Assembly (NCBI GenBank): GCA_025358085.1
Contig: JANYKT010000179.1
Location: 1 to 49,346 of the forward strand
Reading direction: 5' to 3'
Origin: Deltaproteobacteria bacterium
GTDB taxonomy: Bacteria; Myxococcota; Myxococcia; Myxococcales; 40CM-4-68-19
DNA length: 49,346 nt
Shown: in pieces, positions 24,088 through 31,468 of the stretch
Layout of the letters: every line of letters begins with the position of its first letter
Position numbering within the stretch: position 1 is the stretch's first letter
Notes under the pieces: generated by a model
What the model saw: the letters and a program-made list of their open reading frames with translations, nothing else
Database searches by the model: none
Told to the model about the DNA's origin: nothing
Program-made: the position numbers and the translations under genes

Positions 24088-25329
24088 TCAATCCTGCAGC
24101 GCGGCGGCCGCCGCGCCGACGAGCAGCACGGCGACGGAAGTAGCGAGCCCCGCGAACAGGGTCCCGGTCGCGTCGGCGACGGCGCCGGCGAGGATGGGAC
24201 CAATGGGCTGGCCTGCGCCGAAGAGCACTGTATAGGTGGCGATTCCAGCGCCCCACGCCGCCCTGGGCAGGCGCGACCGCGACAGCGCGGTCACGGCGGA
24301 AGGGGGAATGAAGAAGGCGCCACCGAAAAATGCCGCTGAAAGGACCATCGCCCCTAAAGACGTGCTCAAAAGCGGGATGGCGGCGCCAACCGCGCAGGCG
24401 CTGAGTGCCGCCGCGAGCGGCCACCCGCCGCGCCAGCGCGTGAGGGGTCCGCGCCAGGGAAGGGGCGATATGATGATGGCCAGTCCGAGAATGCTCCACA
24501 CAACGCTGACTTCCAGCGGCGTCGCGCCGCGGTCGCGCATCCAGGCGACGATGAACGTCATATAGACGATGGCCCCGAGCGCAAAGCAGAGATAGGCAAA
24601 GAGCGAGGCGAACAGCGGGCCTTTCTTCCACGGCACGCGCTGGATGCTGCGTGGAAGCTCTGGTACGCGCGCCGCGGCGACGAGGCAAGGGACGCAGAAG
24701 ACGGCTGCGACCAGGCCGGTCGCGATCCAGGCTTCGTCCCAGGCGGGCGCCCCGCGGGCCTGGAGGAGCCAGGGTACGAAGAGGCCCGGGACCACGATAC
24801 CAATCCCCCCGCCGCTGAAGTAGACGGCGATCCCCGACGCCGCGTGCGATTGGTGATGCGCATAGAGTTCGGCGGCGAGCGCGCCACCAGCGATGAGCGC
24901 GAGTGCGCCGCCGCCGCCAGCGATGAAGCGCATCAGCAATAAAGGTGCGAAGCCGCGGAACAGCCCGGAGCCGACGATGGATGCGGCAGTCGAGAGCATT
25001 CCCCAGAAGAGCAGCCGGTGCGGGCCGGCTCGGCCGATCAGGCGCAGCGTCGCGACGGCGCCCGCGAAATAACCAAGCGCGTTGACGGTATTCACCCAGC
25101 CTGCTTGCGTATACGACCATTTCAAATCCGCGCGCATCGCCGGCAGGATGAGCGCGTAGGCGAATCGGCCGAGACCATTGGAGACAGCGGGCGCCAGCGA
25201 GAGGCCGACAGCGATCCACAGCGACGGCGCTTTATCAGGAGTGGCCACGGCCGGCACTCTATTCTTGTTGCGATTGGCGCGCTTCCATCGAGTCGCCGGC
25301 GGGGGATTGAGCCGGTCCCTGTAAATCAT
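24088..25329 (-). CDS. Major facilitator superfamily transporter (YbfB/YjiJ-like)
   Basis: 413 aa, about 12 hydrophobic helices after a polar N-terminus of 35 residues. GLGRFAYALILPAMRADLKWSYTQAGW at helix 1-2 is typical of the YbfB/YjiJ family of MFS proteins, whose substrates are mostly unknown. The long cytoplasmic loop around RVPELPRSIQRVPWKKG separates the two six-helix halves. ATG 25329 overlaps the TGA of the hydroxyacid dehydrogenase gene (ATGA), which supports this start and coupled translation. Shared operon suggests transport of a hydroxy- or keto-acid, which is inference. Confidence 0.87.
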   Translation of the reverse strand: MIYRDRLNPPPATRWKRANRNKNRVPAVATPDKAPSLWIAVGLSLAPAVSNGLGRFAYALILPAMRADLKWSYTQAGWVNTVNALGYFAGAVATLRLIGRAGPHRLLFWGMLSTAASIVGSGLFRGFAPLLLMRFIAGGGGALALIAGGALAAELYAHHQSHAASGIAVYFSGGGIGIVVPGLFVPWLLQARGAPAWDEAWIATGLVAAVFCVPCLVAAARVPELPRSIQRVPWKKGPLFASLFAYLCFALGAIVYMTFIVAWMRDRGATPLEVSVVWSILGLAIIISPLPWRGPLTRWRGGWPLAAALSACAVGAAIPLLSTSLGAMVLSAAFFGGAFFIPPSAVTALSRSRLPRAAWGAGIATYTVLFGAGQPIGPILAGAVADATGTLFAGLATSVAVLLVGAAAAALQD

Positions 25330-26261
25330 GCTCCTATCGAGTTGACCGGGTGCAGCGGCGGCTCGCCGCGCAGGACGCGCTCTATATCGGTGAGCGCCAG
25401 CGAGGCCATTCGCGCGCGCGTTGCTTCCGTGGCGCTGCCCAGGTGCGGCAGCAGCACCACGTCATTCCGATTCAAAAGGCCCGGATGGACCCGCGGCTCA
25501 TCCTCATAGACGTCCAGGCCGGCGCCCCCGAGGTGGCCTGTCTCGAGCGCGCGGACCAGGGCCGCCTCGTCCACCAGGGCCCCGCGAGCGGTATTGATCA
25601 AGATGGCGCCGCGCTTCATTTGCAGGAGCTGAACCGCGCCGAGGACGTGGCGAGTCTGGTCATTCAAAGGTACGTGCAGCGTCAAGAAGTCGGAGTCGCG
25701 CAAGAGGGCTTCGAACTCCACCCCTCCACCGCGGCTGGTAAAGAGCACGCGCATGCCGAAGCCTTCCGCGCGCCGCGCCACGGCCTTCCCGATGCGGCCG
25801 TAGCCGAGGATCCCCAGAGTCGCGCCGCGCAGCTCGCGGCCGAGCAGCATGGTGGGCGTCCAGCCGTGAAAGCCGCCGCCGCGCACCAGCGCCTCGCCTT
25901 CGTGAAGCCGGCGCGCCACGGCGAGCAGCAGCGCGAAAGTGAGGTCGGCGGTGGACTCGGTCAAGACATCAGGCGTGTTGGTGACCCAGATGCCGCGCCG
26001 GGTGCAAGCGAGAACGTCGATGTTGTCGGTGCCGACCGCGTTGTTGGCGACGATGCGCAGGCGCGGCGCCTGGTCGAGCAGCTCCTCGTCGACGCGTTCG
26101 GAGAGCATTGAAAGCAGCGCGGAGGCGCCGTGCACGCCCGCGAGCAATTCCTCGCGCGACAGCGTTTCAGCCGGATGGACCTCGACCTCGAGGCCAATTC
26201 CCAGGCGCTCGACCGGATCGACGGAGAGGCAGCGGGTGATGAATACGAGTGGCCGCTGCAT
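25326..26261 (-). CDS. D-isomer-specific 2-hydroxyacid dehydrogenase (glyoxylate/hydroxypyruvate reductase-like)
   Basis: NAD(P)H-dependent reduction of a 2-keto acid, 311 aa. Substrate strand ANNAVGTDNIDV, Rossmann motif GILGYGRIGKAVARRAEGFG, catalytic Arg in NTARGALVDE, Glu in DVYEDEP and His in LPHLGSATEATR. The pattern fits glyoxylate/hydroxypyruvate reductase (GhrB-like) better than lactate or phosphoglycerate dehydrogenase; there is no ACT domain. Start ATG 26261 is chosen from family alignment (MQRPLVFITR); no Shine-Dalgarno site is obvious. Divergent from the formate dehydrogenase operon with 132 bp between. Confidence 0.9.
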   Translation of the reverse strand: MQRPLVFITRCLSVDPVERLGIGLEVEVHPAETLSREELLAGVHGASALLSMLSERVDEELLDQAPRLRIVANNAVGTDNIDVLACTRRGIWVTNTPDVLTESTADLTFALLLAVARRLHEGEALVRGGGFHGWTPTMLLGRELRGATLGILGYGRIGKAVARRAEGFGMRVLFTSRGGGVEFEALLRDSDFLTLHVPLNDQTRHVLGAVQLLQMKRGAILINTARGALVDEAALVRALETGHLGGAGLDVYEDEPRVHPGLLNRNDVVLLPHLGSATEATRARMASLALTDIERVLRGEPPLHPVNSIGA

Positions 26262-26381
26262 CAAACAAAGGTGAGGTGGATGGAAGAGACCATGCTTTTG
26301 CATAGCACGGGCGAGCAGGCGGGCCCCTGGTGTCCGCCCGGCCTGTCCGCCCGCATCGTGTCGCGGGCGCCGTTCCGTGCG

Positions 26382-26387
26382 TAGGTT
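26382..26387 (+). promoter_or_regulatory. -10-like TAGGTT directly before fdhA (leaderless start)
   Basis: TAGGTT ends 6 nt before ATG 26394 and there is no Shine-Dalgarno site. The same hexamer occurs 8 nt before the metallo-hydrolase start (32654-32659). No good -35 box was found. Confidence 0.35.
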
Positions 26388-26393
26388 CAGGCG

Positions 26394-29300
26394 ATGGGCT
26401 TTCTCAAGATACTTGGCGACCATTGGCCATTGGCGAAGCAGATAGCGGAGCGCGACGTGACCGGGCTGGGTTCGCTCTCCTGGTCGGAGCGCAGCGTGGG
26501 ACTCAGGCCCCGCATCGACGGCGCCGAAGTTCATCAGTCGGTCTGTCCCTACTGCGCAGTTGGTTGCGGGCAAAAGGTCTACGTAAAGGACGGGAAGATC
26601 CTCGACATCGAGGGCGACGAAGACTCGCCCATCTCGCGCGGCCGGCTCTGTCCAAAGGGTTCGGCTACCTTTCAATTGGTCACCGGCACGCACCGCGTAC
26701 GGAATGTGCTCTATCGAAAGCCGTACGGCACTGCGTGGGAGAAGATTCCGCTCGAGCAGGCGATGGAAATGGTGGCCGCGCGCGTCAAGAAGACGCGCGA
26801 CGAGACCTGGGACGCGAAGGACGAGAAGGGCCACGATGTCCAGCGCACGCTCGGCATTGCGCACCTGGGTGGCGCCACGCTCGACAATGAAGAAAACTAT
26901 CTCCTGAAAAAGCTCTATACGTCGCTGGGAATCGTGCAAGTCGAGAATCAGGCAAGGATATGACACAGCTCCACTGTCCCCGGTCTGGGGATCTCCTTTG
27001 GCCGCGGCGGCGCCACCACCTTCCAGCAGGACCTGGCGAATGCCGACGTCATCGTCATCCAGGGCTCCAATATGGCCGAGTGTCACCCGGTCGGCTTTCA
27101 ATGGGTGATGGAGGCCAAGGCGCGCGGAGCGACCATCATCCACGTTGACCCGCGCTTCACCCGCACCAGTGCCATGGCGGATATCCACGCTCCCATCCGG
27201 GCCGGGAGCGATATCGTCTTCCTGGGCGGGATCGTGCGGTACATCCTGGAGAATGACAAAGCGTTCAAGGAATACATCATTCCCTATACGAACGCCGCCA
27301 ACATCATCAACAAAGAATTCAAGGATACAGAGGAACTGGCAGGCTTCTTCAGCGGCTGGGATCCGGTCAAAGGGGAATACGACGGTGCGAGTTGGGGATA
27401 TGAAGGCGTCGAAGAAACCATTCCTGCCGGAGGGCACCAGGAAGCAGTGCCGGGCGGGAGCACGCCGCACGTCCCTGGCAAGGCCGTCACCAGCGCCAGG
27501 CGCGACGAAACCCTGCAACATCCGCGCTGCGTCTACCAAATCATGCGGCGGCACTTTGCCCGCTATACGCCTGCCATGGTGGCCGATGTCTGCGGCGTGC
27601 CGGAAGAGCTTTTCCTCCGTATCGCCGAGGCGCTCTGCAAGAACTCGGGGCGCGATCGCACTGGAGCCTTTTGCTATGCGGTTGGCTGGACGCACCATAC
27701 GGTCGCCGTCCAATACATCCGCACCGCGGCCATCATTCAATTGCTGCTCGGCAACATGGGCCGGCCCGGAGGCGGCATCATGGCTCTTCGTGGCCACGCC
27801 TCCATTCAAGGCTCGACGGATATCCCGACACTGTTCAACTTGCTGCCGGGCTACATCCCGATGCGGCACCCGAAGTACAACGGTGTCGATGACTACCTGA
27901 AGAGCAATACCGCCAGCGCCGGGATCTGGTCTGCTTTTCCCGCTTACTTCATCTCGCTGATGAAGGCGTGGTTCGGCGATGCGGCGACGAAGGAAAATGG
28001 CTGGCGCTTCAACTGGCTGCCGGCCATCACCGGCGACCATTCGCACATGGCCACCGTCGCCGACATGGTCGACGGGAAGGTGAAGGGATATCTGGTCATG
28101 GGCGAGAACCCGGTGGTCGGGTCGATGAACGGCACTTTGCAGCGTAAAGGGATGGCGAAGCTCGACTGGATGGTCGTGCGCGACTTTGCGCTCACAGAGA
28201 CGGCCGACTTCTGGCGCACCGCGCCCGAGGTGGTGTCGGGCGAGGTCCCGTCCGGGCAGATCGGCACCGAGGTGTTCTTCTTTCCGGCCGCGGCCCACAC
28301 GGAGAAGGAGGGCACCTTCACCAATACCCAGCGTCTGCTGCAATGGCACCACAAGGCGGTCGAGCCTCCGGGCGCGGCGCGCAGTGAACTCGAGTTCACC
28401 TGGAAGCTGGGAAAGCGCTTGAAGGCCCTTTATGCCGCGTCGCGCGATAGCAAAGACGACGCCTTGCGCGCGTTGACCTGGGAGTATCCCGAGTCCAGCC
28501 CCGGCGAGCCGGACGCGGCCGCGGTCTTGCGCGAGATCAACGGGCAAGGGCTGCTCGATGGTCGATATATTAATGCTTATACGGAATTGAAAGACGATGG
28601 GACCACCGCCTGCGGCTGCTGGATCTATGCCGGCTGCACGGCAGGGGGCGTGAATCAGACCGCGCGTCGCAAGCCCGCCCGCGAGCAGAGCTATGTCGCG
28701 CCCGAGTGGGGATGGGCCTGGCCGAACAATCGCCGCATGCTCTACAATCGTGCCTCGGCCGACCCTGCAGGCAACCCGTGGTCCGAGCGCAAACGCTATG
28801 TCTGGTGGGACGCGGCTCTGGGAAAGTGGACCGGAGTGGACGTGCCTGATTTCATCGCGGACCGGGCGCCCACGTATCGGCCGGTGCCGGGCGCGACCGG
28901 CCTGGACGCCATCAGCGGGACCGATCCATTCATCATGCAGACCGACGGGAAGGGATGGCTTTTCGCACCTTCCGGAATCGTCGATGGCCCATTGCCGGCT
29001 CATTACGAGCCACAGGAATCGGTGGTCGAGAACGCGCTCTATCCGCAGCAGTGCAATCCGATGCGGATGGAGTGGCACCGGAGGGACAATCCATATCACC
29101 TGGCCTATCGCGACCCGCGTTATCCATTCCTGATTACGACCTATCGGCTGACCGAGCACCACACCGCGGGCGGCATGTCGCGCTGGCTGTCCTGGCTGGG
29201 CGAACTCATGCCGGAAATGTTTTGCGAGATCTCCCCGGAGCTCGCCGCGGAGCGGGGCCTCGAGCACACCGGTTGGGCCACGGTGAGCACCGCGCGCGGA

Positions 29301-29651
29301 GAGGTGCAATGTCGCGTGGTGGTGACGCAGCGAATGCGCCCGCTGCGCATCCGCGGAAAAATGGTGCACCAGATAGGGATGCCTTACCACTGGAGCTGGA
29401 TTGGCCGGGTCCGCGGCGATGCAGCCAATGATCTGATCGGCTTCGTCGCCGACCCGAACGTGCATATCCAGGAGTCCAAAGTGCTGACGGGCAACATTGT
29501 TCCGGGCCGCCGCGCCACAGCCCGGAGGGCGACCCTGGGCGGTTCGCCCGGGAATGCAATTGAACTGCCAGAGCCGGGCCCCTTGCGCAATCTTCCCGGA
29601 ATGGTCCCTTTCAAGAGGCAGCCCCTGCAGAATGATCCGGAGAAAGAATAA
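26394..29651 (+). CDS. fdhA: Selenocysteine formate dehydrogenase, catalytic (alpha) subunit
   Basis: Oxidises formate to CO2 at a molybdenum/tungsten bis-MGD centre. 1,085 residues when TGA 26961-26963 is read as Sec190. Both halves are in the same frame, and the junction reads ENQARI-U-HSSTVPGLG, matching the ARxUHGPTV motif of E. coli FdnG/FdoG, Sec next to the catalytic His. Upstream [4Fe-4S] motif CPYCAVGCGQ with C51, C54, C58 and C86 (LCPKG). MGD motifs follow: VIVIQGSNMAECHPVGFQW, IHVDPRFTRTSAMAD, GNMGRPGGGIMALRGHAS, GENPVVGSMNGT, and the C-terminal LTEHHTAGGMSRW and YHWSWIGR region. There is no twin-Arg signal, so it stays in the cytoplasm, unlike FdnG. First gene of fdhA-fdhB-nrfD. 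A routine gene caller would split it at the TGA. Confidence 0.95.
26961..27000 (+). promoter_or_regulatory. Bacterial SECIS element of fdhA
   Basis: After the TGA come 18 nt, then GGTCT as apical loop closed by a perfect 5 bp stem TCCCC/GGGGA (26977-26981 and 26987-26991). In E. coli fdhF the same GGUCU loop also follows the UGA by 18 nt. The loop G/U residues are the SelB contacts. Confidence 0.88.
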
Positions 29652-30425
29652 ATGCCGCAAGGATTCTTCACCGACACCACTCTCTGTATCGGTTGCAAAG
29701 CCTGTGAGGTCGCGTGCAAGCAGTGGAACCAGCTGCCCGACGATGGATTCGACTTCACCGGCTTTTCTTACGACAACACAGCACAACTTGGCGCCTCGAC
29801 CTGGCGGCATGTGGCCTTCGTCGAGCGGCCGGTTCCATTGGGCGGCACGCAGCTGGGCAACTTCTCCTGGCTGATGATGTCCGACGTTTGCAAGCACTGC
29901 GCTCGCGCCGGCTGTCTGGAAGCGTGCCCGACCGGCGCCATTGTCCGCACCGAGTTCGGGACCGTCTATATCCAGCCCGAGATCTGCAATGGCTGCGGCT
30001 ATTGCATCTCGGCCTGTCCATTCGGGGTGGTGGACCGGCGCGAGGATGACGGCCGCGCCTGGAAGTGCACGCTCTGTTACGATCGATTGAAGGCCGATAT
30101 GACGCCGGCCTGCGCCAAGGCCTGCCCGACAGCCTCCATTCAATATGGTGATCTGGTTCAATTGCGGGTGAAGGCGAAGGAGCGCGTGGTCGAGCTGCAA
30201 TCGCGCGGTCTTGCCGAGGCTTACCTGTATGGCGTCGATGCCGAGAACCAGCCCGGCACGGGTGGATTGAATGCCTTCTTCCTGCTGGTCGACAAGCCGG
30301 AAGCGTACAACCTGCCGCCCGATCCGGTGGTGCCGACCAAGTTGATGAAGCGCAGCTGGTTGACCATGGCAGGGGCCGCGCTGGGGCTCGGTGTGCTCGC
30401 CGTCTCCGCGGTGGTGGCGCCGTGA
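29652..30425 (+). CDS. fdhB: Formate dehydrogenase iron-sulfur (beta) subunit
   Basis: Electron-transfer subunit with four [4Fe-4S] binding motifs: CIGCKACEVACKQWN (C12, C15, C18, C22), CKHCARAGCLEACPTG, CNGCGYCISACPFGV and CTLCYDRLKADMTPACAKACPT. 257 aa, like FdnH/FdoH. The C-terminal helix WLTMAGAALGLGVLAVSAVV (about 235-255) anchors it in the membrane, as in FdnH. It begins right after the fdhA stop (TAA then ATG), and its own TGA overlaps the next start (GTGA). It carries electrons from the alpha subunit to the NrfD-like membrane protein. Confidence 0.95.
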   Translation: MPQGFFTDTTLCIGCKACEVACKQWNQLPDDGFDFTGFSYDNTAQLGASTWRHVAFVERPVPLGGTQLGNFSWLMMSDVCKHCARAGCLEACPTGAIVRTEFGTVYIQPEICNGCGYCISACPFGVVDRREDDGRAWKCTLCYDRLKADMTPACAKACPTASIQYGDLVQLRVKAKERVVELQSRGLAEAYLYGVDAENQPGTGGLNAFFLLVDKPEAYNLPPDPVVPTKLMKRSWLTMAGAALGLGVLAVSAVVAP

Positions 30426-31468
30426 TTGCGGATCCTGAAACCGACGTCAGCCGGCCGGTGGAAGACGGCCGCAACATCGATCCGCGGCTCGGCACGCTCG
30501 CCGGCGAGGGCTCGCACCAGCAGGTCGAGCGCATCCAGGCGAGCCGCCCGACGCCGTCGAATGAGCTTGCGACAGGCACTACCTACTATGGATTGCCGCT
30601 GCTGAAAGAGACGCCCTGGAAGTGGGCCATTCCGGCTTACCTCTATGTTGGCGGCTTGGCCGGCGCCTCTGCCGCGCTCGCGGCCTCGTCCCTGCTGAGG
30701 CGCGACTCGCTCGGGACCATCGGCCGGACCGGGCGCATCCTTGCCTTCGGGGGCTCGGTCGTCTCGGCGGCTTTCCTGATCCAGGACCTCGGCCGGCCTT
30801 CGCGATTCATCTATATGCTGCGCGTCTTCCGGCCCTCCTCCCCGATGAACGTTGGCACCTGGATACTCTCGGCCTTCGGCGGCTTTGCGTTCGGAGCGAT
30901 TGCGCTGCCGGGCCGGCTGGGAGACGCCGCATGCCTCGGCGCCGGCATCTTTGGCCTGCCTTTGACGAGCTATACGGCGGTCCTGCTCGCCAACACCGCG
31001 GTGCCGCTCTGGCAGGGAACACGCAATGCGCTGCCTCTGCTCTTTGTCTCCTCCGCTGCGTCCAGCGCGGCGTCCGCATTGGAGTTGTTCGACCTCCCTG
31101 CCGACGAGGCGCGCGTGGTCCGGCGCTTTTCAATCGCAGCAAAGCTCGCCGATATCCTCTGCGCAATTGCAGTGCAGCGGGAGGCCAATGTAGTCGAGCG
31201 CGTGGGGCGGCCATTGCGCAAGAACCCGCTCTGGAAGGCGGCGAAAGTCTGCGTGCTTGCGAGTCTGGTGGTCAGTGTGGTGCCGCGGAAGTCGCGCTGG
31301 CTGCGGATTGCCGGGGGCGTTCTAGGTACGCTCGGCGCAGCGGCGACGCGCTTCGGCGTCTTCGAAGCAGGGCGTCACTCCTCCCGAGACCCGCAAGCGA
31401 GCTTCGAGCAGCAGCGCGCGGGGATGAGCCTGGCCTCGAGCGTCACGACGAGCCTTACGCCGGCGTGA
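30422..31468 (+). CDS. NrfD-family membrane subunit of formate dehydrogenase
   Basis: 348 aa. A polar N-terminus (1-65) precedes GLPLLKETPWKWAIPAYLYVGGLAG, the usual NrfD/PsrC opening, then several hydrophobic helices (about 70-90, 100-125, 145-165, 175-200, 280-295). NrfD proteins pass electrons to or from the quinone pool without haem. Here it takes the place of the cytochrome b gamma subunit (FdnI). GTG 30422 overlaps the fdhB TGA, so the three subunits are translated together. The last 35 residues are polar. The exact number of helices is uncertain, because the middle part is only weakly hydrophobic. Confidence 0.85.
   Translation: MIADPETDVSRPVEDGRNIDPRLGTLAGEGSHQQVERIQASRPTPSNELATGTTYYGLPLLKETPWKWAIPAYLYVGGLAGASAALAASSLLRRDSLGTIGRTGRILAFGGSVVSAAFLIQDLGRPSRFIYMLRVFRPSSPMNVGTWILSAFGGFAFGAIALPGRLGDAACLGAGIFGLPLTSYTAVLLANTAVPLWQGTRNALPLLFVSSAASSAASALELFDLPADEARVVRRFSIAAKLADILCAIAVQREANVVERVGRPLRKNPLWKAAKVCVLASLVVSVVPRKSRWLRIAGGVLGTLGAAATRFGVFEAGRHSSRDPQASFEQQRAGMSLASSVTTSLTPA

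Follow-up and report, generated by a model that had tools for sequence, protein, structure and literature searches.

The alpha subunit of E. coli formate dehydrogenase-N, FdnG (PDB 1kqf), is a full-length homologue of the protein described here and has selenocysteine (Sec) at the aligned position; it carries a twin-arginine motif and has cytochrome b as its membrane partner. The fdh genes that RefSeq lists for Arthrobacter sp. YA7-1 (pYA7-1a, WP_264638076.1) and Thermomicrobium roseum (WP_143714751.1) belong to the same family (NF041513), and in both organisms the gene order fdh, 4Fe-4S subunit, NrfD, the in-frame TGA and the hairpin are all as in the locus analyzed here, at 52–58% identity of the FDH proteins. 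Among bacterial selenoprotein families, Sec-containing FdhA is the most frequent: 1276 members are known from 822 organisms (Peng et al. 2016, PMC5029168). FdhA and SelD have the widest distribution of all bacterial selenoproteins, and the conversion of Sec to Cys in FdhA is documented (PMC1794560, PMC5029168). For a myxobacterium, Anaeromyxobacter dehalogenans, three FdhA proteins and one SelD, all with Sec, have been described (Zhang et al. 2006, PMC1794560); the genome studied here shares the predicted Sec SelD but holds only one close FDH match (E ≤1e-100). The combination of UGA and hairpin is well known for this enzyme and the gene is an ordinary one. Because Sec-containing FdhA is already the commonest family of its kind, the field is left unchanged; what is settled is the correct annotation of one gene, a predicted selenoprotein of 1085 residues with two partner subunits.

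The formate dehydrogenase gene and its internal UGA

In the window, that is, the whole stretch of 49,346 nucleotides that was analyzed, a frame on the forward strand begins with ATG at 26394 and closes with a TAA ending at 29651, giving 1085 codons plus the stop. Its translation is broken only once, by TGA 26961–26963 at codon 190, and all 895 codons 3′ of this triplet are open. The protein matches the NCBIfam formate dehydrogenase model NF041513 over its full length with 1792.9 bits, above the cut-off of 1400, and its translated N-terminus shows the 4Fe-4S cysteine motif VCPYCAVGCGQ together with RLCPKG. When the protein is aligned with FdnG (1kqf, E 3e-224), codon 190 falls on the residue that is printed there as X, i.e., Sec. 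The context reads ENQARI-U-HSSTV, so that a His follows directly after the Sec position. The earlier note had already placed a TGA at the known Sec position of an otherwise open frame, and its coordinates and description are right. We annotate 26394–29651 (+) as an fdh/fdnG-like formate dehydrogenase alpha subunit on the basis of NF041513 and 1kqf, with a predicted Sec190 at 26961–26963 (+), the sole internal stop, which is assigned from the codons of the homologues and the alignment to the 1kqf Sec.

The earlier note also expected an automatic annotation to show the locus as two truncated genes. Naive ORF calling does split the gene into 26394–26963 and 27072–29651; for Arthrobacter and Thermomicrobium, however, RefSeq has one full-length fdh CDS that spans the in-frame TGA. 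Because the full-length gene is already called in these relatives, the expectation was too strong.

The nearest named relatives of this FDH are found in Myxococcus and Hyalangium; judged from these and from relatives whose loci are similar, the genome probably belongs in or close to the myxobacteria. Within the same family, a full-length FDH with a single TGA is present in G002 and G004, and the identity to full-length genes of same-family relatives reaches 72%. The match in a further relative, G001 (L142, G001:C86:9423-12484), lies in two frames, covering query residues 2–576 and 631–1074; this split is a frameshift or an assembly error in G001.

The hairpin downstream of the UGA

Behind the UGA we find a hairpin at 26976–26992 (+) with the stem GUCCCC/GGGGAU and the loop GGUCU. 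The loop (26982–26986) begins 18 nt past the UGA, and TCCCC 26977–26981 forms five Watson-Crick pairs with GGGGA 26987–26991, the sixth pair being G-U. The spacing had been equated with that of E. coli fdhF, and in the K-12 fdhF sequence (L170), which we read, the 18 nt distance and the GGUCU loop are indeed identical, whereas the stem sequence differs and 24 of 45 nt are shared. The hairpin is not thermodynamically exceptional: for short segments the shuffle z of the folding energy ranges from −0.5 to +0.6, and although the segment 26971–26997 folds into the hairpin, a 56-nt segment prefers another fold. In Rfam, SECIS_3 gives 24.7 bits (E 0.0075) over 26958–27016, in the correct register and as the sole match in a 1.2-kb stretch. 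This is less than the gathering score of 63 bits, which is the threshold of one narrow model and does not define all bacterial SECIS. The eukaryotic SECIS model RF00031, a wrong model type for this element, did not match. Of the "textbook SECIS" in the earlier note, the spacing, the loop and the 5-bp stem thus stand, while the folding energy and the Rfam score are weak when taken alone. We assign the element as a bacterial SECIS because of its covariation, and not because of the SECIS_3 score.

For the comparison we assembled 80 loci of named genomes and added relatives from the same order, which gave 99 rows that are readable at the Sec codon. In these rows, this gene included, the codon is TGA in 82, TAG in 10 and TGC in 7 cases. 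An in-frame stop and the hairpin occur together in 92 of the 99, a recurrence that excludes chance. The first six stem pairs are 99–100% paired in the TGA and TAG rows, and compensatory change is seen at two synonymous third positions of the stem. These are the two sides of pair 4, which joins the third base of a Val codon to that of a Gly codon. Among 71 distinct sequences this pair is CG in 39, GC in 13, TA in 8, TG in 8 and GT in 2, and a single sequence is mismatched. The observed pairing value was not attained in any of 5000 shuffles, in a test that ignores the kinship of the sequences. A control that, unlike the shuffles, retains relatedness compares the same base with other third positions: the mutual information is 0.91 within pair 4, against no more than 0.22 when that base is set against the other third positions tested. 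Moreover, in the TGC (Cys) homologues pair 3 is broken in six of seven and pair 4 likewise in six of seven. This loss of the hairpin provides a natural control for selection acting on the RNA.

The TAG rows with an intact hairpin come from Blastococcus, Geodermatophilus, Modestobacter and Klenkia (L051, L061, L064, L066, L067, L077, L086, L087, L089, L091). The use of UAG for Sec in the FDH of Geodermatophilaceae is already known (PMC5330540). A search of the sequences flanking these TAG homologues turned up no amber tRNA.

Selenocysteine machinery and alternative readings

The assembly of the genome comprises 5.42 Mb in 217 contigs and is 98% complete. The search for selA, selB and selD that the earlier note had called for returned all three, with 465 bits for selA, 298 bits along 656 aa for selB and 367 bits for selD. 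The selD gene has an in-frame TGA of its own in the motif HGAG-U-ACK (GUACK; L098:1531-1533, G000:C203), which is the known Sec position, and an 8-bp hairpin lies 3′ of this TGA. Judged from its sequence, selD is a second predicted selenoprotein gene of the genome.

Searches of the 217 contigs with RF01852, two anticodon-loop patterns and BLAST did not find selC, the gene for tRNA-Sec. The best RF01852 matches in the genome were rejected as tRNA-Sec, as ARAGORN calls them tRNA-Leu and tRNA-Ser. One of the two patterns had no match in the assembly and the other only matches at chance level, and BLAST with the selC of a relative gave nothing below E 0.13. The earlier note had named a genome without selB and selC as the case against Sec; of this pair, selB is present, whereas the searches of the 217 contigs did not turn up selC. 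A clear tRNA-Sec (UCA) is found in 5 of 11 same-family relatives and in most of the wider order. In three of these five carriers (G001, G007, G010), selC lies about 2–4.5 kb past an M13 peptidase gene. In our genome the orthologous M13 genes lie on contig C193; they end at position 68,525, and the contig itself runs only to 70,759. Because the contig ends 2.2 kb beyond the gene near which three relatives carry selC, an assembly gap is likely and is the simplest reading of the absence. As a side observation, four same-family assemblies (G004, G005, G008, G009) have an FDH-type TGA gene and no tRNA-Sec above threshold; selC seems to be missing often from the fragmented assemblies of this family.

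The missing selC could also point to a pseudogene in decay, or to a lineage that has lost Sec decoding, so that the UGA now terminates. We consider this very improbable, given that the 895 codons after the UGA remain open, that selA, selB and selD are intact, with a SelD that itself needs Sec, that five same-family relatives possess selC and that the contig with the M13 neighbourhood breaks off where it does. Equally far-fetched appears a genome that lacks a standard selC and in which a divergent tRNA, missed by the models, decodes UGA as Sec. An error in sequencing or assembly, with TGC or TGT as the true codon and an ordinary Cys formate dehydrogenase as the product, would fit the seven Cys homologues with TGC noted above. 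Yet TGA stands at the same codon in independent genomes of the same family and the same order, and the hairpin, which is lost in the Cys homologues, is intact and covarying here; such an error is extremely improbable.

From the computed frame, family, hairpin conservation and covariation and the Sec genes we infer, with very high confidence, that the gene encodes a Sec-containing FdnG-type formate dehydrogenase alpha subunit, in which UGA 26961 would be decoded as Sec via the hairpin. Several findings support the claim that the alpha subunit contains Sec: the family match, the alignment to the 1kqf Sec, a hairpin that covaries at synonymous sites and has been lost from Cys homologues, and the presence of selA, selB and a Sec-type selD in the genome. 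In the proposed mechanism, SelB with Sec-tRNA(Sec) would bind the hairpin 18 nt downstream, and the UGA would be read as Sec. Sec190 would then serve as a ligand of a Mo- or W-bis-MGD centre, beside the catalytic His.

Partner subunits and the opposite strand

Directly behind the alpha subunit lies the gene of a 4Fe-4S electron-transfer (beta) subunit (29652–30425, +; Pfam Fer4_11), which TIGR01582 FDH-beta matches with 189.5 bits, under its cut-off of 334.7. It is followed by an NrfD/PsrC-type membrane anchor subunit (30422–31468, +), for which Pfam NrfD_2 (54.4 bits) and NrfD (52.5 bits) each score above their cut-off. The three genes form an apparent operon, and electrons from formate may pass through the 4Fe-4S subunit into the membrane quinone pool. 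This arrangement differs from E. coli FdnG in its NrfD-type membrane partner, and by eye we saw no twin-arginine motif in the N-terminus of the protein.

On the minus strand, an ORF of 1624 aa (25326–30200) spans the entire FDH gene. The sense strand of the FDH gene is free of TTA, CTA and TCA codons, and we regard this antisense ORF as an artefact of codon usage in a GC-rich gene. The antisense frame over the FDH likewise has no stops in all eight same-order relatives examined, and contains one or two stops in three more distant ones.
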